From: Diphasiastrum complanatum
Lineage: Eukaryota; Streptophyta; Lycopodiopsida; Lycopodiales; Lycopodiaceae
DNA length: 64,000 nucleotides
Assembly: GCA_029204225.1 (NCBI GenBank)
Contig: CM055094.1
Location: 27,948,107 to 28,012,106, forward strand
Direction: 5' to 3'
Below, piece after piece: positions 507 to 55,969 of this stretch. A program made the position numbers and the translations under genes. The notes beneath the pieces are model-generated. The model searched no databases and had not been told where the DNA came from. It worked only from the letters and a program-made list of their open reading frames with translations. Every line of letters begins with the position of its first letter. The stretch's first letter is position 1.

Positions 507-3500
507 CAGGCAATCTAAAATGTGACGAAGCTCATCTGAAGGCTCTCCATCAGAAGCATTCCAATCCACAAGAGTTGGATAGACAATTGCCCAAGGAGAG
601 ACATTGGCTAAAGCCAATAACAAGCCTTCCAATTGCTTCCGGACTTTTGGCTCGGGATGATTACTTAAGCGCGCAAATAATTGAGAAGTTATGTCCTGCA
701 CATAATATAGACATTGAAATTTACAAACGGCATGTTGTGGTTGATGTATCTCCCGAAAAATATCCTGTGACCCAGTATAATGCAGATACACAGAAAGCAG
801 TCTTTTCACAAAAGGTTTCAAACCTCCATTGATTATCTTGCTCTAGTCTGTTAGTCTTATCATTTCGAAATGGTTCATTAGACTGCCTTTTCTAAAACAA
901 AGTTCCAATATGTCAGCAGCAATATCTACTGATAAAACTTTACCTGCCAAGGTGATGGGGGCACTGAAGCTAACCCCTGTTGAAAAACATCTTCTAACTC
1001 CACACCATAATTCTGTAGAATGCACAAGACATGCAATGAAGCACTTAAGACAGAATCAGGTCTTACTGCCTTAACTGTTGTATGCCAATAGCTACTGTCA
1101 CCCTCCTTATTACAAGTTTTCCGCATTGACATGCTCAGATACTGCAAGAAACCACGTGCTGCACACCCAAACATAGAAACCTTCCTCTGCTTCCACCAGA
1201 TATTCATTATTTCAGAGACCACATGGGCAGAGCCACTATAATCAAGCATCTGCAACTCCTGGTGTAGTTGCTTAGATAAAAGCATAACAGGCGATTCTGC
1301 AGAACTATCTGCACTTTCATTGCTCCCAGATGCTGCTTGCATCAAATACAGGACCCGCTGAACGAAGGCCTCTACATGATTGCTTACGTCTGAGCTAGAC
1401 AACAATTGGAAATCTGCTCTTGATATCCATTCTTTTCCACCACTGACTTTCTTGCAATGCTCCTGAACAGCAGTTTGTAACAAAGAACGTATATATTCCA
1501 CATCTTTCTCCAGAAAACTAGATGCAACAGGTGAAAATTCTTTCTCTAGTAGTTTAGGAAATATCAACGGTTCATGTATGGTGGAAGTTCCTATGAATGA
1601 ATTTTTTGCATGAGCAAAACACCAGGATGCATAGGAAAACCATGCCCTAGCCATTCCAGGAAAAAGCAAGGTAGCAGCCTTTATTCCGGCACCAATTAGC
1701 TCCTCTAATATGGCCACAGGTCGTAAATAAGGTCCGAGATTCTTCACGCTGGAAAATACCTCAGCAATTTTAACTGAGCTTCCTGCAATATGGCCACTTC
1801 TGCCCTTTAACTCTAAGCCAGAAAGCAAACTTTCTGAAGGAACATAAAAAGATCGTTGTTTCAACCAAGAAGAGAATTTAAGGCATGCTTTTGCTTTTAG
1901 AAGATCCACTTCGCCAACTGGAACCGATTCAGAAAAGGGGATGTAAGAGCTCACAATGCACCAAAGTTGTCCAATGGCCTCCTCATGTTTACCATCTGAA
2001 AAGAGGAGGAGACTTTGTTCGTACAAAAACCTTCCCAAAAGGAATTTCCAATTTAACCAGTTGCTTGATTCTTTACCATCTTCAAAGGTTACAGAATCAG
2101 AGTTGGGAACTTCCTGCAGCAACCGATAAGCTAGTCTATAATTTGATTGTCTGCGGGCCAATCTTGCTAGTTGCAGTTGAAGCTGTAAGGTAGGAAGTGA
2201 CTTTGGATAAACAGTTCTATAGACGCGCAAAAGTTTGAGCCACAAAAGGCTATCCTGATGAAGAGCATCAAGAGATGAACCCATAACCAGAGGCAATATA
2301 CTCAAAAACCTATCCTGTCGTATGTTTCCATACCGACTTGAGGAGATACCGGTTCCTGCCTCGAACACATTGATACATTCTAACTGCATGGTCAATGGTG
2401 CTGCGTCAAAAACTCCATCAAATGCCGAAACATTCAGTACCTCTTCTATCATACTTCTGGCCAGCTTCAATTCTCGTCCTTTCTCCTCGTTTGTACTTTC
2501 TTTTCGTAACATTGCCTGTAATAGCATTTGCTCACTTCGCTGAAGAGCCTGTCGTGGATCTATTGTTAACTCTATACTGCTTTGAGGTGTCAAGTCCAGA
2601 TATCCCCAGGTTCCAACCACGTCCCCAGCATCAAAACGGCTCATAGCATGGATGGCATTCATGTCATTCCCAGCTGTGGTAAGAGATCCAGCATACGCTT
2701 TGCCAGCATTCCTAACACGAAGATTCTGCAAATCCTGTAGCCAAGCATCTAGGGAATCCCAATCTGCCAGAGCAACATAACATTCAATTGTTCGTGCAAT
2801 AGTGAACTGCACATTATCAGCCCCCATAGCCACCAAAGCTTCTTCCGATTGCAACAAGTTTGTAAAATGAGCTGCAGCTCTTTCATACTGGCCCTTTGCC
2901 TGGAGGGTCAGTCCCGTTATCCAACCTAATGGCCCAAACTGGCTGCTTACCTTCTGTATTGAAGACACATCATCGGATATCAGTGGACCAAAAGTCGATG
3001 CCGCCCACGTCTGCAGTCCCAACAAACCATCAGCATCATGAGCCCGGCAAAGTGCAATAGATGCATTTCTTATAACACGTAAAACATCTTGCTGGACCTT
3101 TATCTTCAAATTTGGCCCCGTGTCAGAAGACTGCGTACGAACTGTTTCTCGTACTGCGGTTGCTGCTATACCTCTAAGGTCCTGTAAACGTAGCATGGCA
3201 TAATGGAATGCTGCTGAGTGACACTGGATGGCTGCACTAGCATTCATTAAAGCTTCGCGTATCCTAGCGAACCATTCCTCACAAACTTTCTTGTTAGCAC
3301 GAAAAAAGAGTACACTGGCTGGTTGAGGGGTGGGCAATATCACTGAACCTTCATACGCATTGTATATATTCTTCTGGAGTCCCTCAACAAACTCTAATAG
3401 CAAGCGCATTGGCAAAAGTTGGAGATTTGATATGCTCGGAGAGCTAAAACCCTCTCGTTGTCCCAACTCTGTTTGTACTTGCTGAGGAATTTCCAGCAGA

Positions 3501-6500
3501 ATTCGTTCGATTGCTGCAAAAGTTTGAGTGGGTCCTCCAAGGTGGGTGCGTAGCTTCACCGTAATGCAATGACGGGCAGCCTCGTTAACTGCCCACCAAG
3601 CTGCAACCAGGTTGCTGCTAGCACAGGATCTTTCCAGCAACTCGACGCCAACATCCAATTCCAGAGACTGAGTATCATGTTTAACGTCTATCAAACCACC
3701 ATCCTGTCCAACAAGTGATTTTTCCAAGGCACGCCTTGAATGTCCAAGCTTGATGTGTCCAGGCGAGCAGTGAAATAACCGCTGCAACCAGCTGGAAGGA
3801 AAAATTTGCGACCGTTGTGTAATATAGCTTAAAATAGAAACAAGTTGCTGCGGTCTAAGGTATTGTGAGAAATGCCTTATTGCAAATACCTGCTTCCAGT
3901 TCCCACATTTGCTATCACGCAATGAGGAAGAAGATAGAATCGGTTTATCGGAAATGGACGAATCATTGTTGAGCCAACCGTGAATCCACAGAGCACCAGG
4001 TGCAGCAAGTGAAAGCAAACTCATATATGCACCCTGAATAGCCACCTCTGGATCTCCAAGCCGCTCCAGAGCGATGCCAGCAACAGCTTCTAGTTGCGAA
4101 GCACCAATAAGCTCTGCTTGCAAAAGCAATTCGAGCACAGTTGCAACACGACCTCTAACCCTGGGTTCTCGATCTCCTGCAGCTGCAATAAGCATCCGCA
4201 GCAGATCGTAACCTATACCTGCACCTTGCATAGTTCGGCACAGGTTTTCTTTTATATGATTGTCGAATGACTGCCATACATGAGAAGAAAGATACTTGCC
4301 TCCAGAAATCTCGTCCTCAGCTAAGTTGGCAATCCATTCTAAGACTTCCACCTTGACAGGAAGACTTGCATGAGCATCCAAACCCCGGGCCATCATCCAG
4401 CTACACTGGTTCAAGCAATCTATCCCTGTTACCCTGCTAATACTTTTGTAAACCTCAGTATTCTGTTCATAAACAACCTGTGGATTATCATGCATAGCTC
4501 CAGATGGCTTTTTTGAAAGTCGTAAGGACCATAATCTGCGTAAAGCTTGTATAAGTGCAAGCTGAAGATCTGAATACCACTGTATTGGATCTTCAAAGGG
4601 ACTCAGCTTTTGTGATATGAGCTTGTCAATATAATTTGCTTCCATGCCTTCACATGTGCATGCATGCAAGTGTGAAGAGCTTGGTGCACTTATGCCAGTG
4701 GAAAAACTACTAACCAAAACAGCCAGATCAAACTTGAACAATGATATAGCCTCTGATTCACTCAATGGCTTCACTGACACAGATTTCTGAATAGCTGTAG
4801 AAGGTGCCATTCCAAATGATGGCCTTTCTGCCTTACCAAATCTGTCAAGAAAGTACATCTTTAACCTCTCCAATTCATCTTCAACACATTTTGCTGCTCC
4901 CATTACTATTTTGATGGATACATGCTGCAACAGAAACAAGTATGTTGCTGCAACAATGCCAGTGACAAGACGGCTTGGATGCAAACGCAGAATTGAAACA
5001 ACTGAGCCCGATCCAACCACTTTGTCAACGTTTGAAGGTATCAAGGAAAGACCCTGCGAACGAAGTAGATGTAAGTTTGCCTTCAGCAATTCCTGTATCT
5101 GTCCAGGCGTACGTGCCACACAAAATGGCACGGCAGCTAGTCCAACAATGCTTCTTTGCTTAAGTGTCTCTTCAATATTCTCTGCGACCAGGTTGCTGAG
5201 TAAAACGTCAATTGCTAGCTCGTAATAGCCAGCAAACTTTTCTTTCAAAAAATCTGCCAAGATGATCAAGCAATTTGCAGCTTGATTTGTCCACCTAAAA
5301 TCCCCAAACTTAACACCCACATTTTTAAAGCATATCAGCAACCGTGCAAGTAATTGCTCAAAGGATTTTGCCAAAAGATCAATCTGACTCAACTCCAAAA
5401 CTCCCGAAGCAGTAGATTGAAGAACAGCTACAAAACAAGATGCTAGTGCAAGCAGTCGGCGCAGTTGCTGCTCAGTGGCAGGAGTTGCATCCTGAGCCAT
5501 CAATTCCATGTCATCAAGAAATTTTGACAGCAGCTTCAATGGAAATGGCAAGCTTCCCACCCAAAGCTTCTGAAACTCCATAAAAGAGCCTGTTATAACC
5601 TGACGATCTGTCTCTGACACACCAGGTTCTAGTGCCCACCCCAGAAGCAAATCCACCATGTCCACAAAGTGAGGTTGAAAGCAATGATGGAACCTGATTG
5701 CAATAACTTTCAAAAGATCCAAAAGAGGCTGAACAACTGTCATGGAGGTTCCTCCATCTTCCAACACATCCTGGCAAGCTCTGAGGATAGGAGTAACAAA
5801 CTGTTCTGAGGTGCCAACATCACCTGAAACAAAGAATTCACGCGTAGCAACCAATGCCAAGACAACAGCATCAGAGTCGGGACATGCTCCTGTAAGTAGT
5901 GGCAATGCCCATCCCACGAAACGATCTGCAGGGCCTCCAGTAAGTGCTGCATTTGGCCGTCCATTCGACGAAGAAACTGGGGCTGCTCCCACGGCAGAAA
6001 GTGCTCCAAAAAGAATGGCTGCTGCATGTTTTACTACATAAGCTCTGTACACACATTACTTTATTAGTTCCTTCTTCCACAAGAATTGATTGCAGATTAG
6101 AACGCAAACTTACGAAAACTTAAAGCATCAATACAAAAATAGCATTCATTTCATTCAATGAGGCAAACTATTTGTCACAGAATTATACATTAACACTGCT
6201 TTTCACCTAGATGAAAAGGTACGCGACAAAATCCATTCCCCAACACGCAAATTCCACTCACCATTACTTTCTTGAATGAACTATTGGTGATAATACAAAA
6301 AATTTGCATCCCTTTTTTTTGGAGTAAAAATCTACTGTGCAGAAAACCTAATTGTTGAAGATCTTTAATCTGCTTGATAAACGTATGGTAAAGTTTACAA
6401 ACAAAATAGATCAATGACTGCATAGTAAATGAGGCAAAAGAGAATTGTACTTGTCAGAAAGGAGCTGATGAACACTCTGGAAGAGCCGAGCAAAGGAGCG

Positions 6501-25506: not shown

Positions 25507-26728
25507 ATTCTAAATGTGCCATAAACGACACAAAAACCAGGAGGCATCAAATCTGAAAAATCAGCACCGGAATGTGTCAAAATCACACATGTAGATGGAT
25601 GTAGGAACTTGCCCTCCTACAAGCCTTGTGTGCTGAAAATTCAGCCTGAAATTGGATCACAAACTCAAAGAACTAGCAAGCAAAGAATTAGGTTAGACTC
25701 CAACAAAGCTTTCTCCAAAGTCCTCCAACAAAGCTTTCTCCAAAATCCTTCTTTCTTACCAAAAAAATGTGAACAATACACACACGAATAGGGCTGTTGC
25801 AAACACCCTACAAATGGTAATATGCTGTCCAATTTTTAGCCTCAGAATGTGATCGGATCATCACAAAAAATTAGCGCCTTGTTCCACACCTGAAAACAAG
25901 AAAAAAGAAGCGGATCGTCACTTTGTAAAATCAACAAGGGTGCTGATTTTTCAGCCAAATTAGAAGATAAAAATTGCTTGTAGATGGGCACCCTCCTACA
26001 AATGAGCAAATCTGAAAAATAGGGCAACAACGGACCAACAGAAGAAGGATAAACCTACACGAATGTGGGCGACGTAAAAGTTTTTCCAAAGAAGATAATT
26101 AATGGCGCCTTTCTACAACCTGAAAAATCAGCAAACAACAACCTGATTTTTGGGCACCCAAAAGCCTATTATCTTCTTTGATGTGTGGCGTCCTCTGGCA
26201 AAACGGAAAAGAGTCAAAGTGGAACAGATCTTCACTCCAAAAAATCAACAAAGGTGCTGAATTTTGTGATCCCTAAGTGAAGACGATCTCGCGCCCAAAA
26301 TCAAGCATAGAAGATACAAGGCTTTGATACCATGTAGGAAATCAAAGTGCCAAGATCCTTCTAACATTCAATCTCCATATACAAGAAGAAGAGGGAGAGG
26401 GTTAGGCGCCCTCAAGGAGAGAGAAAGTAGTAGCAATGCTTTAAAGGGAATCAATTACAAATGAATAATGAAACATATAAATAGGCCTTCCAAGGGCCTA
26501 GAGTCTTCCAAAAACCCTAAATTATAGAACCTTTCAACCCTAAGCTTATCCACTACTACTTATAGGGCACCCCCAAAAGTCAAGATAGGGTCCCTTAACA
26601 TAATTAGAATTTACTTGGACCCACGAGTTACTACTAGACCAAAATTGGGTCCAACATAACTAAAACTAATTTAACATGGTCTAAATAATACACCTAACCG
26701 AAGTCTCGACCCTTTGGGTCAAAGTAAC

Positions 26729-27349
26729 TATGAAAGATTCAACTAGTTTCATCACATTTTGCAATATTTCCATATTTGGCATATTGAGGCCAAAACTTGT
26801 TTTAGACTTAGAGGTTGACTTTTCAAAGTTCATTAGTCTAAATTTCATTTGAATAAACACTTTTTGAAAGTGTGGGAAAGATAGAATGCGAGTTTGAGTA
26901 GATTCAATTTGAATAAGTTGGGTACATTGAATCTAGGCCCAAAATTGGTAGGGTTAGCATTTTGGTGGGAAAGCGAAGTGGCCAAATAGGGTTCGGACCT
27001 GTTATAAAAGGATGTAACTCGTGGAGAGAGTCATCTTCTCTCTTCTCTATCTCATTTCATGCTTATACATGGTTCTCTTGGGTTCTACTATCCATTGGTG
27101 CACTATCTTGGTGATTGCTTGCAATTCTATGTGTAGAATGATCTATATTTGCTATTTGTGGATCCACACGTGTGAAAACAGTAGCTTGCTGGTTTTTTAC
27201 GGACAACAACAGGATATAATCATTTCATTCAACTTTGATCAAGTTCTATTAGTGTTTGCATCTCAAATTGTGTGTAGATGCTGATTTTTTCTACATTTGT
27301 GAGATTGGTAGTGTATTTCTCTTTCTAACCAAAGATCATTCAAGTAGAA
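26729..27349 (+). repeat. 5' LTR of Copia C
   Basis: Matches 31,418-32,038. The first bases read TATGAAAG instead of TGTGAAAG. The last roughly 30 bases present in the 3' LTR (32,039-32,068) are missing, so CAAGTAGA joins the primer site TGGTATCAGAGC (27,350) almost directly. Contains a TATAAAAGG promoter-like site at about 27,003. Confidence 0.85.
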
Positions 27350-27950
27350 TGGTATCAGAGCTTGTGTTTCAGGCTATGAAAGAGGAAATCAGATCTATCA
27401 ATGATTTGGTGAAGATATCAAGTCTAGAGCATGCTAGAGAGGATTCTACACCAAAATCAATTTTTTTGCTTTTTTAGATTGGATCTTTTGTAGATCAAAA
27501 CACTAAATAGGTCAATATACTTGTTCAATGTCGATTTTTGAATTCACATACTGGATTTGGCCGATTTTTGGATCATTGGTTCAGCCTAAGTGGTGGCTTA
27601 TAGATTGCATATCAAATTTTTAGCATTTGCATGTAGATTTGGAATAGTCAATTTTTTTGTGATTTTGTCAAAACCCTAATTTTGATTGGATCTCTAGATA
27701 GTGAGGCTGCTGGACTTCATTTGAGTGTGTTTCAATCTTAGGAAGTGGCAAAAGTCATTAGATTGAGGATAGATCATAGGTTGATCAAGATTCCATGATT
27801 CTATGTGTTGATTTGCTTGGATAAGTGCTAGAAGAGAATTTGTGAGATAGTTTCAAATCTTGGTGATTTCTTTTGAAAGCATTTGTTGTTGTTCAAAGGA
27901 GTGCTTTGTGCATTGAATCAGGTTGAAAGAGAAGATCAGGTCATTTCTAT

Positions 27951-28415
27951 ATGGCAACCTCAATTGGAGTCATATTGGAAGCCAATGATAGGCTTACCTC
28001 AAGTAACTATTCATTGTGGAAAGTGAGGATGGAGTCACTTCTTGAGATGAATGATGTTTTGGATATTGTTGTAGGCTTGGAGGAGAGACCAACAACACAA
28101 CAAGATCAATTGAGGTATGACAAGAGGGCCAAGAAGGCTCTACACATGATAAAGATGAATGTTACCAATGAACTTCTCAAGGAAGTTGGTAAGTGCACAT
28201 CATCTTTGGAAGCTTGGAATTCATTGAAGAAGCTTTATGAATCCAAGTCTACTTCTAGAGTGTTGACTCTAAGAAGGCAAATCTTTTCTTGTTTGCAAAA
28301 GAATGAAGAAAGTCCAAGTACTTTTGTTTTGAGAATGAAAGCATTGAATGATGAATTAGCTTATTCAAAAGACTTTGCCAAGTTTGATGGATCTTCAAGA
28401 GATCTTGATCAATGA
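27951..28415 (+). CDS. Copia C gag (truncated)
   Basis: ATG at 27,951 opens a 154-codon gag: LTSSNYSLWKVRMESLL, RAKKALHMIKMNVTNELL, SRVLTLRRQIFSCLQ, FVLRMKALNDELAYS. This is the capsid-like domain (UBN2/Retrotran_gag type). A short deletion after LAYSKD shifts the frame; the zinc-knuckle part continues in the overlapping frame from 28,375. Either this element makes a separate short gag or a frameshift would be needed to extend it. I read it as a lesion. Confidence 0.8.
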   Translation: MATSIGVILEANDRLTSSNYSLWKVRMESLLEMNDVLDIVVGLEERPTTQQDQLRYDKRAKKALHMIKMNVTNELLKEVGKCTSSLEAWNSLKKLYESKSTSRVLTLRRQIFSCLQKNEESPSTFVLRMKALNDELAYSKDFAKFDGSSRDLDQ

Positions 28416-31400
28416 GGAATATAGGCTTCAACCAAGAGGTGGATCTACATCGACACTTCAAGAGGATGCTATGTTCACAAAGGGCAAATGCAAGGGCAAA
28501 ACCAAAAGCAAGTGGTCTGAAGGGCAAGATCAAGTGGATGCTTCTTCAAGTGGCAAAAATAAGGATAGATCAAAGCTCAAGTGCTTCTATTGTGGCATCA
28601 AAGGACACTTTGCAAGTGAGTGCTACAAGAAGAAGAGAGATCAAGGAGACAAGCAAGGTAATCTTACTCTTGATGAGGATGGTTTGGATGTGCAAGATGC
28701 AAATGATGATGCTTTTGTGATGTCTTCATGTATGCTTGCTAATGATGGAGATCAAGATCCTTGGTGGATTGATAGTGGAGCAAGTTCACACATGACCTTT
28801 CACAAAGAGTACTTCACTTCTTTGTTGGCATATGGAGATGACAAGACGGTGATCTACATGGCCAATGATGGTGAGTGTGCAATCAAAGGGATTGGCACAA
28901 TTCCTATTTCTCTCTCTACAAATAGGAATGTTCATTTGGAGGATGTCTTGTTTATTCCATCTATTACCAAGAATTTGCTTAGTGTGAGTCAAATGCTAAG
29001 TAAGGGCCTCAAGGTGGAGTTTGATGGAGATGCTTGTATGATCAAAAGGAAGGATGTCTTGATTGGAAAAGGTAAAAGGCAAGGGAAGTTGTTCAAACTT
29101 GATGCTTGTGTTATTGCTAACCAAGTTGGATGTGTTGCAAGGGAGCAAATTTCTATTCAAGATGTTTGGCACAAAAGGATAGGACACATCAACTTCAAGT
29201 CATTGGAGGTAATGGCAAGGAAGAAGGTTGTGATTGGTCTTCCAAGTTCCTTAAGTAATGACAAGCATGTTTGTGAGTCTTGTGCTTTGTCTAAGTCACA
29301 TAGTCTATCTTATACTAGATTTACAAAGCCTTTTCAACTTGTACATTCGGATATTCATGGATTTACTACAATTAGCAATAGTGGAGCTAAGATGTATGTA
29401 ACATTCATTGATGATTTTAGTAGATTTTGTTGGATCTATCTACTAAAGAGCAAGGATGAAGTGTATGATGTCTTTGTCAAGTTCAAGAATGCAAGGGAGA
29501 ACCAATTTTCCACAAAGATCAAGTGCTTGAGAGGTGACAATGGTGGTGAGTACATATCTAACAAGTTCAAGGCTTTTTGTGATGAGCATGGGATCAAGAG
29601 GGAGTATACAACATCAAGGACCCCACAACAAAATGGAGTGGCTGAAAGAAAGAATAGGACTTTATGTGAAAGTGCTAAAGCTATGAGGTTAAGTGCTAAT
29701 CTTGACAAACCATTTTGGGATCAAGCTTTGTTGTGTGCCAATTTCTTGTGCAATAGGTGGCCGAGTGCTATTTTGGATGGAAGGACACCTTTTGAGATGC
29801 TATTCAAGAGGAGGCCGAGTGTCAACTTTCTAAAAACCTTTGGATGCACATGCTATGTCAACACTCTTGATTATAGGACCAAGGAGGATCCATCTTCAAG
29901 AAGAGGTATTTTTGTTGGATACAGTGAGGTGAGTAAAGCCTACAAGGTTTACATTCCTTCTACTAACAAAGTGATTGTTGGTAGAGATGTCATTTTTTAT
30001 GAGAGAAACATTCCAAAGGTGTCTTCAAGCATGATTGATGGTAAAGTAGATGGATCTAACATTCTTGATGTTGATAAGAAGGATCTTACTTTGGATGGTG
30101 GTGATGATGGACCTTCATCAAGTCAAAAGCCAAGGAGAACATCAAGAGAAAGACAAGTACCTTCAAGGCTCACATATGATCAAAAGGGTAAGCAAGTAGT
30201 TTCTGTAAATTATGTTGCTTTCCTAACCTCTTTGGATGAGCCTATAAGTGTAGATCAAGCAAGGAAAGAAGAGGAGTGGATCCAAGCAATGGATCTTGAG
30301 TATCGATCTCTTATGAAGAGTGGAACATCCTTTGGAAGATATTCTTGTGTACATCGAGCTATGCAAGTGGATGGATGTTATCTTGCTGTAAAATCAAGTA
30401 TTGGATCTGGAAAACAAAGTTTGTTCAATGACTTTGATGATCAAGTTGAAGATCAAGAATTTGATCTCAAAGCGCTTCAACTAGTCAAAAGGGAAGGTGG
30501 CAATTTGGAGCTAGTCAAGAGCATCAAAGGAGAGGTAATTGGCAAAGGTGTTATGGATCTATTTTTACAGCATATTGAAGACTCAATTAAGGTCAAAGGA
30601 GCAACAAGAAAGTGTTTTTCAAGTTTACTTTACTTGTTCTATCTCATGTTTGAGCAATTTCATGTGGATGTGTGCAAATTGTCAAGATATGGTAAAACTA
30701 GCTACATTGGTGAGCATTGTTTTGATGTTGGATTTGTACTAGCATTCTTGGCTGGTTTTGCTGATGGAAATGAAGCTATTGGAGGTTCATTATGTCACTC
30801 ATTCATGGTCAAGTCATCAAGGTATGATGGTATCTTGAGGCAAGATGAAGATGGAGGCTCATTCATGGAGTATCATGGTGGATACATGGCAACGAAGGAC
30901 AAAGGAGGAGGAGACATGCAAGCAAAAGTTGATCACTCACATTTACTGTTTCTTTGCTGTATTTTTCTAGAGAGTTCAGAGTTGGAAGCATGGTGGAATC
31001 ATCTCATTTACATTCTATTTGATTCTTCATGTTCTAGTCACATTTTTACATGTAAAATTGATGTAAGAAATAGTGAAGCATTCCAAGTGGACACTATTCT
31101 CTGTATCAATTATGGTTGTTTCTATTTTGAGCATTACATGATTATTGAAAGGAGGTCTATTCTTAAGAAGATGATCATTCTTATGATGGATCAAAGTTCT
31201 ATTGTCAAAAACTATGCTAGGAGCAAGCATATTGAAATACAATATCATTTTGCGAGGGAGCGAGTCATTGCAAAGGGGGTGGAGCTTCAATATGTGTCTT
31301 CAAGGGAATGTGTAGCTGATATCTTCACCAAAGCATTGGGAAAAGACTTGTTCATGAAGCATAGGACTTCACTTGGAGTATTATCAAAGTCTATGCTAAA

Positions 31401-31422
31401 ACTAGTTGAAGAGGGAGTGTGA
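28375..31422 (+). CDS. Copia C zinc knuckle, protease, integrase, unrelated insert, RNase H end
   Basis: A single 1,015-codon frame. In order: CFYCGIKGHFASEC zinc knuckle (about residues 71-84), protease WWIDSGASSHM (about 131), integrase with HSDIHGF, GDNGGEY and NGVAERKNRTL (about 325-435) and its C-terminal part FGCTCYVN, then WIQAMDLEYRSLMKSGT, the usual entry to RT. The next 40 residues look like frameshifted RT (HRAMQVDG). From about 30,440 to 31,180 the sequence is unrelated to RT, yet open for about 247 codons. It then rejoins RNase H at YARSKHIEIQYHF and VADIFTKALGKDLF and ends at TGA. There is no YVDD motif, so the product lacks reverse transcriptase. Confidence 0.85.
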   Translation: MPSLMDLQEILINEEYRLQPRGGSTSTLQEDAMFTKGKCKGKTKSKWSEGQDQVDASSSGKNKDRSKLKCFYCGIKGHFASECYKKKRDQGDKQGNLTLDEDGLDVQDANDDAFVMSSCMLANDGDQDPWWIDSGASSHMTFHKEYFTSLLAYGDDKTVIYMANDGECAIKGIGTIPISLSTNRNVHLEDVLFIPSITKNLLSVSQMLSKGLKVEFDGDACMIKRKDVLIGKGKRQGKLFKLDACVIANQVGCVAREQISIQDVWHKRIGHINFKSLEVMARKKVVIGLPSSLSNDKHVCESCALSKSHSLSYTRFTKPFQLVHSDIHGFTTISNSGAKMYVTFIDDFSRFCWIYLLKSKDEVYDVFVKFKNARENQFSTKIKCLRGDNGGEYISNKFKAFCDEHGIKREYTTSRTPQQNGVAERKNRTLCESAKAMRLSANLDKPFWDQALLCANFLCNRWPSAILDGRTPFEMLFKRRPSVNFLKTFGCTCYVNTLDYRTKEDPSSRRGIFVGYSEVSKAYKVYIPSTNKVIVGRDVIFYERNIPKVSSSMIDGKVDGSNILDVDKKDLTLDGGDDGPSSSQKPRRTSRERQVPSRLTYDQKGKQVVSVNYVAFLTSLDEPISVDQARKEEEWIQAMDLEYRSLMKSGTSFGRYSCVHRAMQVDGCYLAVKSSIGSGKQSLFNDFDDQVEDQEFDLKALQLVKREGGNLELVKSIKGEVIGKGVMDLFLQHIEDSIKVKGATRKCFSSLLYLFYLMFEQFHVDVCKLSRYGKTSYIGEHCFDVGFVLAFLAGFADGNEAIGGSLCHSFMVKSSRYDGILRQDEDGGSFMEYHGGYMATKDKGGGDMQAKVDHSHLLFLCCIFLESSELEAWWNHLIYILFDSSCSSHIFTCKIDVRNSEAFQVDTILCINYGCFYFEHYMIIERRSILKKMIILMMDQSSIVKNYARSKHIEIQYHFARERVIAKGVELQYVSSRECVADIFTKALGKDLFMKHRTSLGVLSKSMLKLVEEGV

Positions 31423-32068
31423 AAGATTCAACAAGTTTCATCACATTTTGCAATATTTCCATATTTGGCATATTGAGGCCAAAACTTGTTTTAGACTTAG
31501 AGGTTGACTTTTCAAAGTTTGTTAGTCTAAATTTCATTTTAATAGACACTTTTTGAAAGTGTGGGAAAGATAGAATGCGAGTTTGAGTAGATTCAATTTG
31601 AATAAGTTGGGTACATTGAATCTAGACCCAAAATTGGTAGGGTTAGCATTTTGGTGGGAAAGCCAAGTGGCCAAATAGGGTTTGGACCTGCTATAAAAGG
31701 ATGGAACTCATGGAGAGAGTCATCTTCTCTCTTCTCTATCTCATTTCATGCTTATACATGGTTCTCTTGGGTTCTACTATCCATTGGTGCACTATCTTGG
31801 TGATTGCTTGCAATTCTATGTGTAGAATGATCTATATTTGCTATTTTTGGATTCACACATGTGAAATACAGTAGCTTGCTGGTTTTGTATGGATAGCAAC
31901 AGTACATAATCATTTCATTCAAGTTTGATCAAGGTCTATTAGTGTTTGCATCTCAAATTGTGTGTAGATGCTGATCTTTTCTACATTTGTGAGATTGGTA
32001 GTGTATTTCTCTTTCTAATCAAAGATCATTCAAGTAGATTGGATCTTAAGGATCTGAAATCTTTCACA
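31418..32068 (+). repeat. 3' LTR of Copia C
   Basis: 651 bases from TGTGAAAGATT to AATCTTTCACA, an 11-base perfect terminal inverted repeat, followed by GTAAC. It overlaps the last codons of the pol frame, as is common in Copia elements. Confidence 0.9.
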
Positions 32069-32111
32069 GTAACCTATGGGAAACTAACATTATCATTTAT
32101 TATTTCTAACA

Positions 32112-47519: not shown

Positions 47520-48399
<880 letters not shown>

Positions 48400-49748: not shown

Positions 49749-50487
49749 TGTTGAATTTCACATGTGTGAACTGTCCACTACATGTACTTGTGATCTCCTA
49801 AGGTGTGTAGATGCACCAAGATCAAGACTAGATTGAGATTCAAGATCTATCTTTGAATCTATGGCAAAAACACACTACTACATGCATTCAATCACATGCA
49901 ACTCTCACTCACACATGTGGGAAGTATTCAAAAAATAATCTAAGTAAAAACAAGCTGCTCTCCTTGGGTAGAGAGAGAAAAAAAGCATCATGAGCTCTCG
50001 GGTAGAGAGAGAAAGCTAGAAATCCAATAACTCACAAAATCCATGAAATCACCAAATCAATTCAATCCAAAATGAGGAGTACAATGATAGTAGTAGATCC
50101 ACGAGCTACCACTATGCTTAACTATGATTGGACCATATTTTGTCACCTCTTGATCCTATTGGATCATTGATCCATGCACCTCTTAATTCTATTGGACTAT
50201 ATTCAAGCACACCTCAATTTCCTATTGGACCTCACAAGGTTCCACCTCTAAATCCTATTGGACCTCTTGGAATTCATCAAACAAAAGCTTTACACTTGTC
50301 TACACTCTAATTGGAACGTGTTTAGCCTCTTACTCTATTTTGGCTCAATAGTGGCATTACAAGTGGAAAGACATAATTTGCCATCTATGCCAAATTTATT
50401 CCTATCAACATCCTACACCTAGATGCTTGATGTAAAAAACATAAGACCCCTATAACTAACATAGATAATCTTTTTCAATTCTTCACA
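49749..50487 (-). repeat. 3' LTR of Copia Y
   Basis: Plus-strand ends TGTTGAATTTC and CAATTCTTCACA. It differs from the 5' LTR by a few substitutions and a short insertion near 50,050 (ATTCAATCCAAAATG region). Contains three CCTATTGGA-type phrases around 50,150-50,260. Confidence 0.9.
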
Positions 50488-50505
50488 CTCCTCCTAAGAA
50501 ATTAT

Positions 50506-53500
50506 CTATGAAGATTTGAACATTGATCTTGATATAACTCCAAGATTAGATCTATGCTTGATGAAAGCACTTTTGCTCAAAAGCTTGGTGAGTAGATTGG
50601 CAATACAAGAGGACGAGTTGACATGCTCCAAATAGATTTCACCTCCAATAAGCTTTTCTCTCACAAAATGGTGTGCCACTTCTATGTGCTTGCTTCTTGC
50701 ATGAAATATGGGATTATTGGCAAGAGCTTGGGCCGAGATGTTATCACACTTGATCATTGGTAGATCATCCTCCTTGATGCACTTTAGCTCCATTAAAAAC
50801 CTCTTGATCCAAAGCACTTCTTTGGTAGTTGTAGTGAGTGCTTTGTACTCGGCCTCACATGAAGAGAGAGATATAGTATCTTGCTATTTGGAAAGCCAAT
50901 ATATAAGACTGCCTCCAAGAAAGATAGTGTATGCACTAATAGACTTTTGATCCATCTTGTCACTTGCAAAGTCCAAATCCGAGTAGCCAATAATGGATAG
51001 ATCTTCACTTTTATAGAGTAGACCAAAATCACAAGATGAAGATACATATCTTAAAATCCTCTTGGCCATCTTCCAATGATGGATCTTAGGATCTTGCATA
51101 AATTGACTCAATTTGTGCACACAAAAACTTAGATCGGGCCTAGTAATTGTAAGCCAAATCAAGGAGCCTCCAAGACTCCTAAAAAGTGTGATGTCCTCAA
51201 AAGATCTTTCATCACCTTTATTAGGATCTTTTACAATTTGCTCCATTGGAGTATCTATGCTCTTAGAATTTTCCATATGAAATTTTTTCAACATAGAGTG
51301 AGCATATCTAGATTGGCATATAAAGACATGATTTTCATAAAAATCAATTTCTAGGCCTAGAATGTAATGCATCTCTCCTAGATCTTGCATTTTAAACTCA
51401 CATCCAAGTGCTAGCTTGGCTTCATCAACTAGCTTGATATAACTTCCACAAAGAATAATGTCATCAACATAAATTAGAAGAATGACAATATTGCTATCAA
51501 CAACTTTAGATACATGGAAGGATCATAGTCACCATGAGTAAATCCTAGTGAGATAAGAAAAGAGTTAAGTCTTGAATACCATGATCTTGGTGCTTGCTTG
51601 AGTCCATAAAGACTTTTGAAGAGCAAGCACACTTTGGACTCATCCTTGATGAATCCTTGAGGTTGTTCCATATAGATCTCCTTCTCAAGATAACCATTTA
51701 GAAAAGCATTGGATACATCTAATTGGAACACCTTCCACTTGAAAAAACAAGCAAGAGAAATAAGAATTCTTATTGTCACCATCTTTGCAATGGGTTCAAA
51801 GTTCTTCTCATAATCAAGACCATGGATTTGAGCAAATCCTTTGGCACATAATCTTGCTTTATGCTTATTGATGGTGCCATCATGATTGAACTTGATCCGA
51901 AATACCCACTTGCAACCAATCACATGCTTGTTGGATGGAGGATCCACAAGCTCCCAAGTATTGTTGGTGACCAATGCATCATACTCTTGCTTCATGGCAT
52001 CATACCACTCCTTGGTATTGAGTTCCTCTTGTACATTCTTTGGCTCTTCATGAGAGACATAAAAAACATAATGAGTGGAAATCAAGATCCACTTGTTTGC
52101 CTTTGTCAACATATGAGAGCCTCTTAGGCTCGGATCTATCTCTCATGGATCTTCTTGGTGAGAAAATCTGAGGAGAGTCTTCTTCAAATCTCGACCCCAT
52201 CACATCATAATTGTCTTCAAAATCGATAATTGATGATGCATCCATAGATTTCTTGATCTCGGCCTCTTCAAAAGATGAGTGTTGATCTTCATGAAAGACA
52301 ACATCTCTACTTTCAATAACTTGAGAAGTATAGAGTATAAAGACTCTATAGGCCTTCTTGGTGGATGAGTATACAACCATGATCCCTTTACATGCACTAG
52401 GATCTTCCTTCTTCCTTGTTTTCAAGGGAATATGGACAAAGCATAAGCATCCAAAAACTCTAAGGTGATCAACCTTAGGCTTCTTCAAAAATAAGATTTC
52501 ATATGGTGACTTTCCTCCAAGAGCTATGTGTGGGAGCCTATTGCAAAGATAATTTGCACAATTAATGGCTTCTCCCCAAAAATCTTTGGGCAAAGATGCC
52601 TCAATTCTCATAGATTTTGCACATTCACATAGAGATCTATTCTTTCTCTCGGCCACTCAATTTTGAGATGGAGAGTAGGCACAAGAAAACTCTCTTTTAA
52701 TGCCTTCAAGCTCACAAAAATCTTGAAATTTATTGGAGATATGTTCACCACCTCCATCACTTCTAAGAGCTTTAATCTTGAATGAGAATTGCTTCTCTAC
52801 ATAAGCTTTGAAAATAAGGAAATGATCAAACACCATAGATTTAGAAGCAAGAAGATATATCCAAGTGAATCTTGTGTAATCATCAATGAAAGTAACAAAA
52901 CAAGTGGCTCCTCCCTTGCTTGTAGTTGATGAGAAATGCACATCCGAGTGGATTAACTCCAAAGGATGCTTGCTTTTGATAGAAGATCTTGTAAATGGCT
53001 TTTTGTGAGATTTAGCAATAGCACAAGCCTCACAAGGCTTGATCTTCTTGGACAGTGACTTTGGCAAGCCAATAGCTTTGGCTTCTTTGATCATAGAGAG
53101 CATGGATTTGTAGTTAGGATGTCCCAACCTCCTATGCCATAATTCCTCCATAGAGAGCTTATTCACAAGAGCAAAATTACAAGCATTCACATACTCATTT
53201 GGATCTAGTTTATAGATGCCACCAAATCTAGATCCTAATGCAAGTATCTTATCATTCTTCTTGATAGTGCAAGTATCAACATTGAATTTTACATCAAGGC
53301 CATTATCAAGCAATTGGCCAACACTAATAAGATTCTTTGTAAGCTTAGGTACATAAAGAACTTTAGAGAGAGAAAGAACTTTAGAGGATGCAAGCTTCAA
53401 GGGAATGTTCCCTATGCCTTCAATAGGACACTCAAAATCATTTGTAGTGTATATTGATTTCATGACTCCATCATAAGGTGCAATAGAAGAGAAAGAGTCC

Positions 53501-54491
53501 TTGGAGCTACACATATGTGAAGAGGCTCCACTATCAATATACCATAGGCCGTCCTTCTTGAAAGGAGTAGATGAGAAACTAGAGACCATAAGATATCCCT
53601 CTCCATCACTTGCAATAGTGTCTTCCTTCTCATTGGTAATGTTGGCTTGCTTGAGTTGATTCTTCTTCTTGAAGCAATTGGTGGCATAATGACCTTTCTT
53701 GCCACAATAAAAGCACTTGATCTTCTTCTTCTTGAGCTTGGATGATGAAGCATTAGAGGAATCATCTTCCTCCTCATCTTTATCTTTGGATTTGACTTTG
53801 TCCTTGCTTGAGGATTGTTGATGTTGGTTCTTGCTCCTCCCTTTGTGCTTATCCTTGGCAAAGAGAGTTTTGCCATCATTATGAGTGAGAGAAGGCTTGT
53901 CCATCCTCAAGAGCTTGTACTCTTGTCTTGATTCTTCCGAAATTAGCACACTTTGGAGAGCCTCCAAACTTGGTATCTCCTCCTTAATGGCATAGGATTG
54001 TACAAGGTTATCAAATTCACTTCTCAAGCCATTGAGAATGACTTGAACTAGCTCATTTTGATTGATGGAATCACCAATACAAGTAAGTTCTCTATGAATA
54101 TCTTTTACTCTCAAAACATAACTAGATGCACTCTCATCACTCTTTTGGCTACTTTGAAAGATTTGATTCCTAAGAGTGAGAAGCCTAGAGGTATTCTTAG
54201 CCTCATAGATAGCCTTGAGACAATCCCAAGCTTCTTTGGCTGTTGTACAAGTACCTATCTCTCTCAATATCTCATTAGAGACATTCATCTTAATGTGGTG
54301 GAGAGCCATCCTAGATCTCTTTTGTATTTTTGAACCTCTTGAAGAACTTGTGGTTCTTCTTCAAGGCCAAGAACTATGTCCATCACATCTTGAAGGATCA
54401 AGATGGACTCCATCCTCATTTTCCAAATTGAATAGTTTGAGGTGGTCAATCTTTCACTTGGTTCCAACAAGGATGAACCCATTGAAGACAT
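50506..54491 (-). pseudogene. Copia Y gag-pol polyprotein
   Basis: Gag starts MSSMGSSLLEPSERLTTSNY (ATG 54,491). Then come the zinc knuckle CFYCGKKGHYATNC (about 53,700), protease WYIDSGASSHM (about 53,540), integrase HSDVHFSS, FIDDYTRF, RSDGGGEHIS and AERKNRSL (52,640-52,960), RT ARLCAKGFAQ, LDVSNAFLNGYLEKEIYMEQ and IYVDDIIL (51,465-51,870), and RNase H CEAEYKALTTT, NPIFHARSKHIEVAHHF (50,570-50,830). Lesions: frameshift in gag near 54,305, a TGA in place of Gly before VAERKN (52,655), frameshifts near 52,080, 51,475 and a stop near 50,884. It is the best preserved pol in the window. Confidence 0.9.
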
Positions 54492-55247
54492 TTGAAGTGA
54501 AGAAAACTCAAATGATGAACAATAAATGTTGCTACACACTCTCAATAGGATCCAATAATAGAGTACTATCTCCTCCTATGAAAGATCTTGCAACTATTTG
54601 TGAATTGATTCTTACTAGCTACAAAATCTCTCTAACACAAGATCTATTTCACATCAAATGATGGAGTATAGGCAAAGTTAGGATCAAACACTCTTAGCAC
54701 GTGTGAAGTACTCTAAGAAATCAAATTTGACTCAAATACAATGATATTGCATAAAACAAAATGGCTAAGATCTCAAAACAGTGCCTAGATCACATATAGA
54801 TGAGATTGGCAAACATACAACTGTGATTTTGGATCAACCAAGAAATCTCTTGACCAAACCAAATGTGTCCACCCAGGTCTAGGTGCCCTAACTAACCCTC
54901 TTCAAAAGCTTATAACTTCTAATTGGCTCAACCAAATGGAATGAAACTGACTGTATCAAAAACTAGACAAAAATAGCTTCAAAACAAGCTATCAAGCAAG
55001 ATAATTGGATCAAGCATGAGAGAGAACTTCCAAACTGAAATTGGATGTTCCTCACACGTGTCTGAGCACCTGATTTCGTACAGTACTAGGTCAGACCCAA
55101 TCAATGTCCTTTTGATCTCTTTTGATCCAAGATTGAACAAGATAGCTAGAAAAATGGGCCTTGACAACTTCTAGCTCAAGATTGATGAGAAATTTTTCAC
55201 TTAGATGGATCAAAATGCATGGTAACCTTAGGTAGGATCTGATACCA
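54492..55247 (-). other. Copia Y leader and primer-binding site
   Basis: Non-coding leader between primer site (55,236-55,247, minus-strand TGGTATCAGATC) and gag ATG. Contains several ACACGTGT-type words near 54,700 and 55,055. Confidence 0.75.
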
Positions 55248-55969
55248 TGTTGAATTTCACACATGTGGACTGTCCACTACATGTACTTGTGATCTCGTAA
55301 GGTGTGTAGATGCACCAAGATCAAGACTAGATTGAGATTCAAGATCTATCTTTGAATCTATGGCAAAAACACACTACTACATGCATTCAATCACTTCCAA
55401 CTCTCACTCACACATGTGGGAAGTATTCAAAAAATAATCTAAGTAAAAACAAACTGCTCTACTTGGGTAGAGAGAGAAAAAGCATCATGAGCTCTCGGGT
55501 AGAGAGAGAAAGCTAGAAATCCAATAACTCACAAAATCCATGAAATCACCAAAATGAGGAGTACAATGATAGTAGTAGATCCACGAGCTACCACTATGCT
55601 TAACTACGATTGGACCATATTTTGTCACCTTTTGATCCTATTGGATCATTGATCCATGCACCTCTTAATTCTATTGGACTATATTCAAGCACACCTCAAT
55701 TTCCTATTGGACCTCACAAGGTTCCACCTCTAAATCCTATTGGACCTCTTGGAATTCATCAAACAAAAGCTTTACACTTGTCTACACTCTAATTGGCACG
55801 TGTTTAGCCTCTTACTCTATTTTGGCTCGATAGTGGCATTACAAGTGGAAATGCATAATTTGCCATCTATGCCAAATTTATTCCTATCAACATCCTACAC
55901 CTAGATGCTTGATGTAAAAAACATAAGACCCCTATATCTAACATAGATAATCTTTTTCAATTCTTCACA
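55248..55969 (-). repeat. 5' LTR of Copia Y
   Basis: 722 bases, paired with 49,749-50,487. The inner end CAACA touches the primer site. The 60-codon plus-strand frame found in both LTRs is LTR sequence and not a gene. Confidence 0.9.

Follow-up and report, generated by a model that had tools for sequence, protein, structure and literature searches.

A multi-copy Copia family in Diphasiastrum complanatum with an open segment in place of its reverse transcriptase, very probably served by an RT-bearing sister family

We analyzed a stretch of 64,000 nucleotides from Diphasiastrum complanatum (GenBank assembly GCA_029204225.1, contig CM055094.1, positions 27,948,107 to 28,012,106 of the forward strand; hereafter the window, in whose own coordinates positions are given) and focused on element C, a Copia retrotransposon that occupies 26,729–32,068. 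Element C has gag, protease and integrase coding regions, and at the place of reverse transcriptase (RT) it carries a segment of about 295 open codons. The same structure with common edges recurs at independent insertions in the genome, and the genome also holds a sister family with the same long terminal repeat (LTR) whose frames are open through RT. We consider it very probable (about 0.85) that C is a multi-copy semi-autonomous Copia family derived from the RT-bearing family, in which RT has been exchanged and is supplied in trans.

Element C has a pol frame of 1,020 open codons (28,360–31,422). A preliminary description of the window had reported an unbroken frame of 1,015 codons from 28,375, which is real except for its extent. 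Pfam matches to CCHC, Pol_BBD, GAG-pre-integrase, rve and SH3 were found in the frame, in agreement with the zinc knuckle, protease and integrase noticed before, and Pfam gave no match to RVT_2 or any other reverse transcriptase in the pol frame or the segment. Gag, protease and integrase stand ahead of RT/RNase H in the Ty1/Copia order, with the segment filling the RT place, and the LTR pair, primer binding site (PBS), polypurine tract (PPT) and 5-bp target duplication are all present. Element C is a derivative of Ty1/Copia and not a complete member, as RVT_2 is missing from it. Its 5′ LTR starts with TATGAAAGATT, and its 3′ LTR starts with TGTGAAAGATT and ends with AATCTTTCACA; the PBS, TGGTATCAGAGC, is of a type that we take to be the initiator Met tRNA one. 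The LTRs had been called complete and similar, with a target duplication; GTAAC does stand at 26,724 and 32,069 and the LTR divergence (K) of the window copy is 0.042, but the 5′ LTR is about 30 bases short.

The left edge of the segment is at 30,327/30,328, and the right edge lies just before the HWK codons in copies having RNase H. Replacement of the RT core had been placed at about 30,440–31,180; the absence of RT is real, and the limits are 30,328 to about 31,212. Within 257 segment codons 15.8 stops were expected and none was found, and none of 2,000 simulated sequences was free of stops. A frame open by chance is thus rejected, just as had been argued from some 247 stop-free codons. The segment alone had no match in Pfam or NCBIfam at E values up to 10 or in PHROGs at E up to 1, and its best match among PDB sequences had E 1.7 or worse. 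An apparent decayed RNase H at 31,130–31,212, read by eye, was also rejected, the fuller copies having a real RNase H downstream. The segment has an identical length in 30 of 39 copies fetched from the genome, the others showing indels or an incomplete match, and it measures 893 bp in copy L047 as compared with 882 bp for RT in a copy of the sister family.

We searched a genome of 1.74 Gb in 5,176 contigs, some 23–24 of them large. The DNA search with the segment gave 5,707 first-look candidates, and its 41 best matches comprise the window, 39 others and one overlapping fragment; among these listed matches the other copies are 96–97% identical to the segment. Since the segment itself was the query by which the 39 copies were chosen, the adjoining sequence is the informative part: 36 of them match the pre-RT block, 38 have at least 22 matching bases of left flank and 37 match the RNase H tail; copies L028 and L029 carry the start of RNase H. 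In the search with the segment protein, the best 134 of 16,965 candidates are 86–100% identical and all extend from residue 1–15 to residue 283–291 of 291, and two more divergent copies from this search, read directly, have the same edges. Other copies with the same junctions, which the preliminary description proposed to look for, therefore exist, 38 of 39 having element sequence joined at the left edge. Exact 5-bp target duplications flank 13 of the 15 copies with both full LTRs and represent 11 distinct sites (two duplicate pairs counted once); K ranges from 0.009 to 0.050 in two-LTR copies. Since these duplications lie at distinct sites, the C family has moved by retrotransposition several times, and it did so in its RT-less form, as had been supposed. 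The window copy has gag and integrase deletions that other copies lack, as might be expected of private decay in one copy with a chance open frame, but the segment and its edges are common to other copies and this view is refuted. As an observation apart, the shorter C copy L026 (G000:C8:40734309-40741004) passes from gag straight into the left edge of the segment; it has a target duplication and an LTR K of 0.009 and is perhaps a further-deleted mobile form. The segment copy at G000:C21:31074720-31075592 is listed within a surrounding open frame of 4,423 aa, which may or may not be real.

The query that led to the sister family was RNase H from a fuller copy of C, for which the best 150 of 110,168 candidates were scored. 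By manual count, 114 of these 150 places have a frame of exactly 195 aa, as expected from the stop at the segment edge, and 36 do not; 21 of the 36, by reading, adjoin a place of the RT search. In the sister copy compared, 171 bp of pre-RT DNA are 97% identical to C and are followed by a normal RT with YVDD and then by RNase H. Its RT matches RVT_2 with E 2e-79 and is 882 bp or 294 codons long, its 3′ LTR is 96.5% identical to that of C over 651 bp and its RNase H protein 97%. The best 133 of 135,482 candidates in the search with the sister RT are all 95–100% identical, and four of these places are listed with a stop-free frame of 1,325 aa. By this one sister copy, C has its LTR in common with an RT-bearing family of the same genome, as a semi-autonomous partner should, and RT from another element, already invoked in the preliminary description, has a likely source. 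The RT copy at G000:C10:9205261-9206142 is listed in a surrounding open frame of 4,055 aa that may or may not be real.

Other partners were tried and rejected. Copia elements D and E of the window are only 46–48% identical to C from gag to integrase, and the D LTR has no DNA match to C; D as a close parent fails both in DNA (alignment z 1.7–2.1 against 10 and 7 for controls) and in protein (z −0.8 to −0.05 against 52 and 24). For the top RVT_2 hits of the genome, the four tails read out of 150 belong to another lineage. Copia D itself (49749–55969, minus strand) has LTRs that are 95.7% identical and RT and RNase H distributed over several open frames. With 119,352 RVT_2 first-look candidates, of which the best 150 were scored, the genome seems very rich in Copia elements.

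Part of the damage in the window copy is private. Its 92-bp gag deletion is absent from all 23 fetched copies covering the site, so that the gag/pol frameshift reported at 28,375–28,415 is real in this copy and peculiar to it, and its integrase lacks about 15 bp (near 29,304–29,313 and 29,863) found in 22–24 of 26 aligned copies. RNase H follows the segment in 21 of the 39 copies, and 386–387 bp of it are missing from the window copy and the other 18; the missing piece is flanked by the 12-base direct repeat ATGCTAGGAGCA. The smooth rejoining of the frame to RNase H, correctly seen in the window copy, is thus a second event, produced by this separate deletion and not by the exchange of the segment. 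Of the 21 copies with RNase H, 20 have a stop (19 TAG and one TAA) in the segment frame within a few codons past the right edge, and the remaining one has none; RNase H is in a different frame in L030 and L047, the two translated copies without a one-base insertion. In a tree of 34 segments (the window and 33 copies), the RNase H-bearing L035 and L014/L041 fall inside the cut group, a mixed placement that suggests template switching. Stops in the segment are scattered among copies and no segment indel is common to five or more of them, so the common ancestral segment was probably open.

We further compared variation among the parts of C by using variants shared in 18 non-redundant sequences (15 for the 5′ leader and 17 for the RNase H tail). 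The number of shared variants per kb is highest in the segment (59), followed by the LTR (48), the 5′ leader (47), the pre-RT stretch (34), gag (32), integrase (31), the RNase H tail (19) and protease (17), with singletons at 159–221 per kb in every block. The shared to singleton ratio of the segment differs from that of gag, protease and integrase taken together (p 0.002) and is close to those of LTR (p 0.90) and leader (p 0.25); LTR plus leader differs from the three coding blocks as well (p 0.02). In these three blocks, nonsynonymous to synonymous counts are 29 : 21 for shared variants versus 237 : 90 for singletons (Fisher one-sided p 0.03), and in the segment 40 : 11 versus 126 : 42 (p 0.75). 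The ratio of nonsynonymous to synonymous polymorphism (pN/pS), taken over all sequences covering each block with duplicates retained, is 0.36 for gag (23 sequences), 0.66 for protease (26), 0.51 for integrase (27) and 0.72 for the segment (39), whose wrong frames give 0.81 and 0.84. The comparison of synonymous and nonsynonymous change that had been recommended thus finds a segment that varies like the LTRs, with no sign of protein constraint. There is modest evidence that Gag, protease and integrase are under some constraint and that the segment is drifting, the pre-RT stretch not fitting neatly.

These results can be put together as follows. The 294-codon RT of a family with the same LTR would have given way, between sharp edges, to about 295 other open codons in frame with integrase. 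C RNA, with its LTR ends, PBS and PPT, would be packaged alongside sister RNA; Gag, protease and integrase could come from less damaged C copies, and RT (plus RNase H in the case of RNase H-cut copies) from the sister in trans, whose RT, possibly with its RNase H, would copy both RNAs. The segment would now be a passenger or a spacer. Supply by the sister is proposed because C has no RT and has its LTR in common with that family. Several points weigh against this reading. Trans-supply, co-packaging and a segment without protein function are what we infer from sequence, and the sister comparison covers the pre-RT stretch, RT, RNase H and 3′ LTR of one copy. LTR identity cannot tell which RT is used in a genome with 119,352 first-look RVT_2 candidates. 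Translation from the gag start of 22 C copies first runs into a stop at codon 22 to 848, and only three copies pass codon 780 (L031 at 848, and L011 with its duplicate L018 at 784), so that most of the copies read make no complete gag–integrase protein. The signal of constraint is weak, with p 0.07 for gag and p 0.10 for integrase when each is tested alone; the pre-RT pN/pS reaches 1.54 (36 sequences), and the pre-RT stretch and the RNase H tail are also poor in shared variants.

The origin of the segment is a separate matter. It may have been captured, as coding DNA of a host gene or another element brought in by template switching during reverse transcription and then left to drift, a view to which we give somewhat less than an even chance; for plant LTR elements, template switching is a described route of capture (PMC13317346). 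The sharp edges fit this view, as does a single frame that stays open against an expectation of about 16 stops. The codon phase fits as well: its chi-square was reached by 28 of 2,000 stop-free simulations and its excess of G at position 1 over position 3 by none of 2,000; but of the 291-base windows only the first has a clear phase signal (fraction 0.003, against 0.09–0.52 in the others). The longest blastn match between segment and sister RT is no more than 11 bases, and tblastn with RT pieces of elements A, D and E of the window gives no match beyond the left edge and RNase H, by which RT in another frame was rejected too; inverted RT was likewise dismissed, the reverse complement of the segment having no similarity to the sister RT. 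Profile–profile comparison by hhalign shows no relation to that RT (E 0.28, not colinear). No source was found in genome searches that cover the best-scored places, viral contig scans gave no match, the 893 bp are close to the 882 bp of the replaced RT, and the right end of the segment has a weak colinear likeness to RT. Of the two options in the preliminary description, a captured host segment or a non-autonomous Copia type, the latter is supported, and host capture has neither a source among the best-scored places nor a family match in its favor. A protein domain newly serving the element, like the domains of unknown function in wheat semi-autonomous elements, is improbable. The frame is open, of constant length in those 30 of 39 copies and amplified in many copies; however, the three codon positions have similar numbers of shared variants (15/21/16 in the 18 sequences), whose density is LTR-like (p 0.90), 28 stops occur across 39 sequences, 19 of which have none, and AlphaFold2 with single-sequence input gave a mean pLDDT (predicted local distance difference test) of 34.6.

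Alternatively, the segment could be the family's own RT changed past recognition in a long-lived RT-less lineage, the other parts being kept sister-like by recombination and the frame being kept, for example, because early stops expose RNA to nonsense-mediated decay (NMD). We regard this as possible, with the odds against it. Besides the near-equal length, the likeness to the sister RT is concentrated at the right: for the right 150 and 220 nt, matches as good occurred in 0/98 and 0/88 other segment windows, 0/170 and 0/164 windows of C gag–integrase, and 0/274 and 1/162 random window pieces, a pool that includes the window's own Copia RTs. The right 100 aa have z 3.0 against shuffles and no equal among 180 other windows, the best local match, of about 75 bp, is displaced by 5 bases from its colinear place, only 3 of 427 random pieces equal the whole segment, and eight blocks combined give z 3.1. 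Nevertheless, the whole protein has z −0.2 and the left part no protein signal; the right 110 nt (14/104), the right 50 aa (11/230) and the middle (77/456) are not special; and the rotation test ranks the segment 11/298, or 66/298 against the D RT. The top block score is off the diagonal (13.0 versus 8.9), the complement control has a local z of 3.2 compared with 2.9 for the segment, and 3 of 18 decoys match or exceed its local score. Several of these tests were chosen after earlier results were known. In addition, an ancestor with zero stops is hard to explain without selection, and no selection on the segment is visible now. A fuller version, in which a former RT lost all its motifs but kept length and frame as a reading-frame spacer, perhaps a shield from NMD, with flanks (LTR, pre-RT stretch and RNase H) held at 96–98% likeness to the sister by repeated recombination, is unlikely. 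The word "unrelated", used before for this sequence, agrees with the hhalign result and is less certain for the last 150–300 bases, which are weakly and disputedly colinear with the sister RT.

Features of element C in the window
Feature	Position	Strand	Remark
Target site duplication GTAAC, 5′ copy	26724..26728	no strand	sequence
5′ LTR	26729..27349	+	about 30 bases shorter at 3′ end than 3′ LTR
Primer binding site TGGTATCAGAGC	27350..27361	+	
gag	27951..28415	+	shortened by 92-bp deletion near 28,359/28,362
pol frame: zinc knuckle, protease, GAG-pre-integrase, integrase, SH3, start of RT region	28360..30327	+	
Open segment at RT place	30328..31212	+	295 codons, without family match
RNase H tail	31213..31419	+	preceding 386-387 bp of RNase H missing in window copy
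3′ LTR	31418..32068	+	
Target site duplication GTAAC, 3′ copy	32069..32073	no strand	sequence

Elsewhere in the window, the minus strand at 926–6055 holds an open frame of 1,709 codons that matches the SMG1 kinase (Pfam SMG1, E 1e-34) in retrotransposon-rich surroundings; SMG1 is a gene of nonsense-mediated decay. At 47811–47919 there is a short tandem array, perfect and in a 6-base register.

C and its sister form a natural pair, namely two multi-copy Copia families of one genome that are alike wherever compared, except for RT in one and an open segment of near-equal size in the other. With this pair one can test directly which parts of Pol a retrotransposon must supply itself and which it can borrow. 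It also raises the question of why an apparently functionless frame was open as the copies multiplied.

Among non-autonomous LTR elements, TR-GAG is known to keep only gag, and LARD and TRIM are not known to have a coding frame. Element C resembles these, as well as BARE-2 and Tos17, in that missing functions would be provided in trans (PMC6696364, PMC9744471, PMC3977881; here and below as far as the consulted parts of the cited papers go), but BARE-2 and Tos17 lack a working gag (PMC6696364, PMC9744471). TARE1 of tomato, a Copia, is described as incomplete copies of an autonomous family, and a replacement segment is unmentioned in the consulted part of that account (PMC3701649). Bs1 of maize has host segments inside an LTR element, and the title of a paper cited in that source speaks of a hybrid frame; unlike in C, for whose segment no source was found among the best-scored places, the captured host genes of Bs1 are identified (PMC13317346). 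The high-copy, semi-autonomous RLG_Sabrina variants of wheat have unique coding segments, but they are Gypsy elements without RT and integrase, and their segments occupy the gag–protease place (PMC9744471). A further close parallel is RLG_Quinta of wheat, an RT-less Gypsy partner of the complete RLG_Cereba with LTR ends and PBS in common. It retains Gag together with DUF1, a coding segment whose function is unassigned, and shows signs of recombination between lineages (PMC11302176). C likewise has its LTR in common with a complete family and carries an unassigned coding segment. However, RLG_Quinta is also without integrase (PMC11302176), whereas in C, a Copia, RT alone is exchanged: its protease and integrase frames are retained, and 21 of 39 copies also have RNase H sequence. 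No Copia family with RT alone replaced was found in the literature searched, the coverage of which was partial. Semi-autonomous partners with unassigned coding segments are thus known in wheat, and the Copia form in which only RT is exchanged is new.

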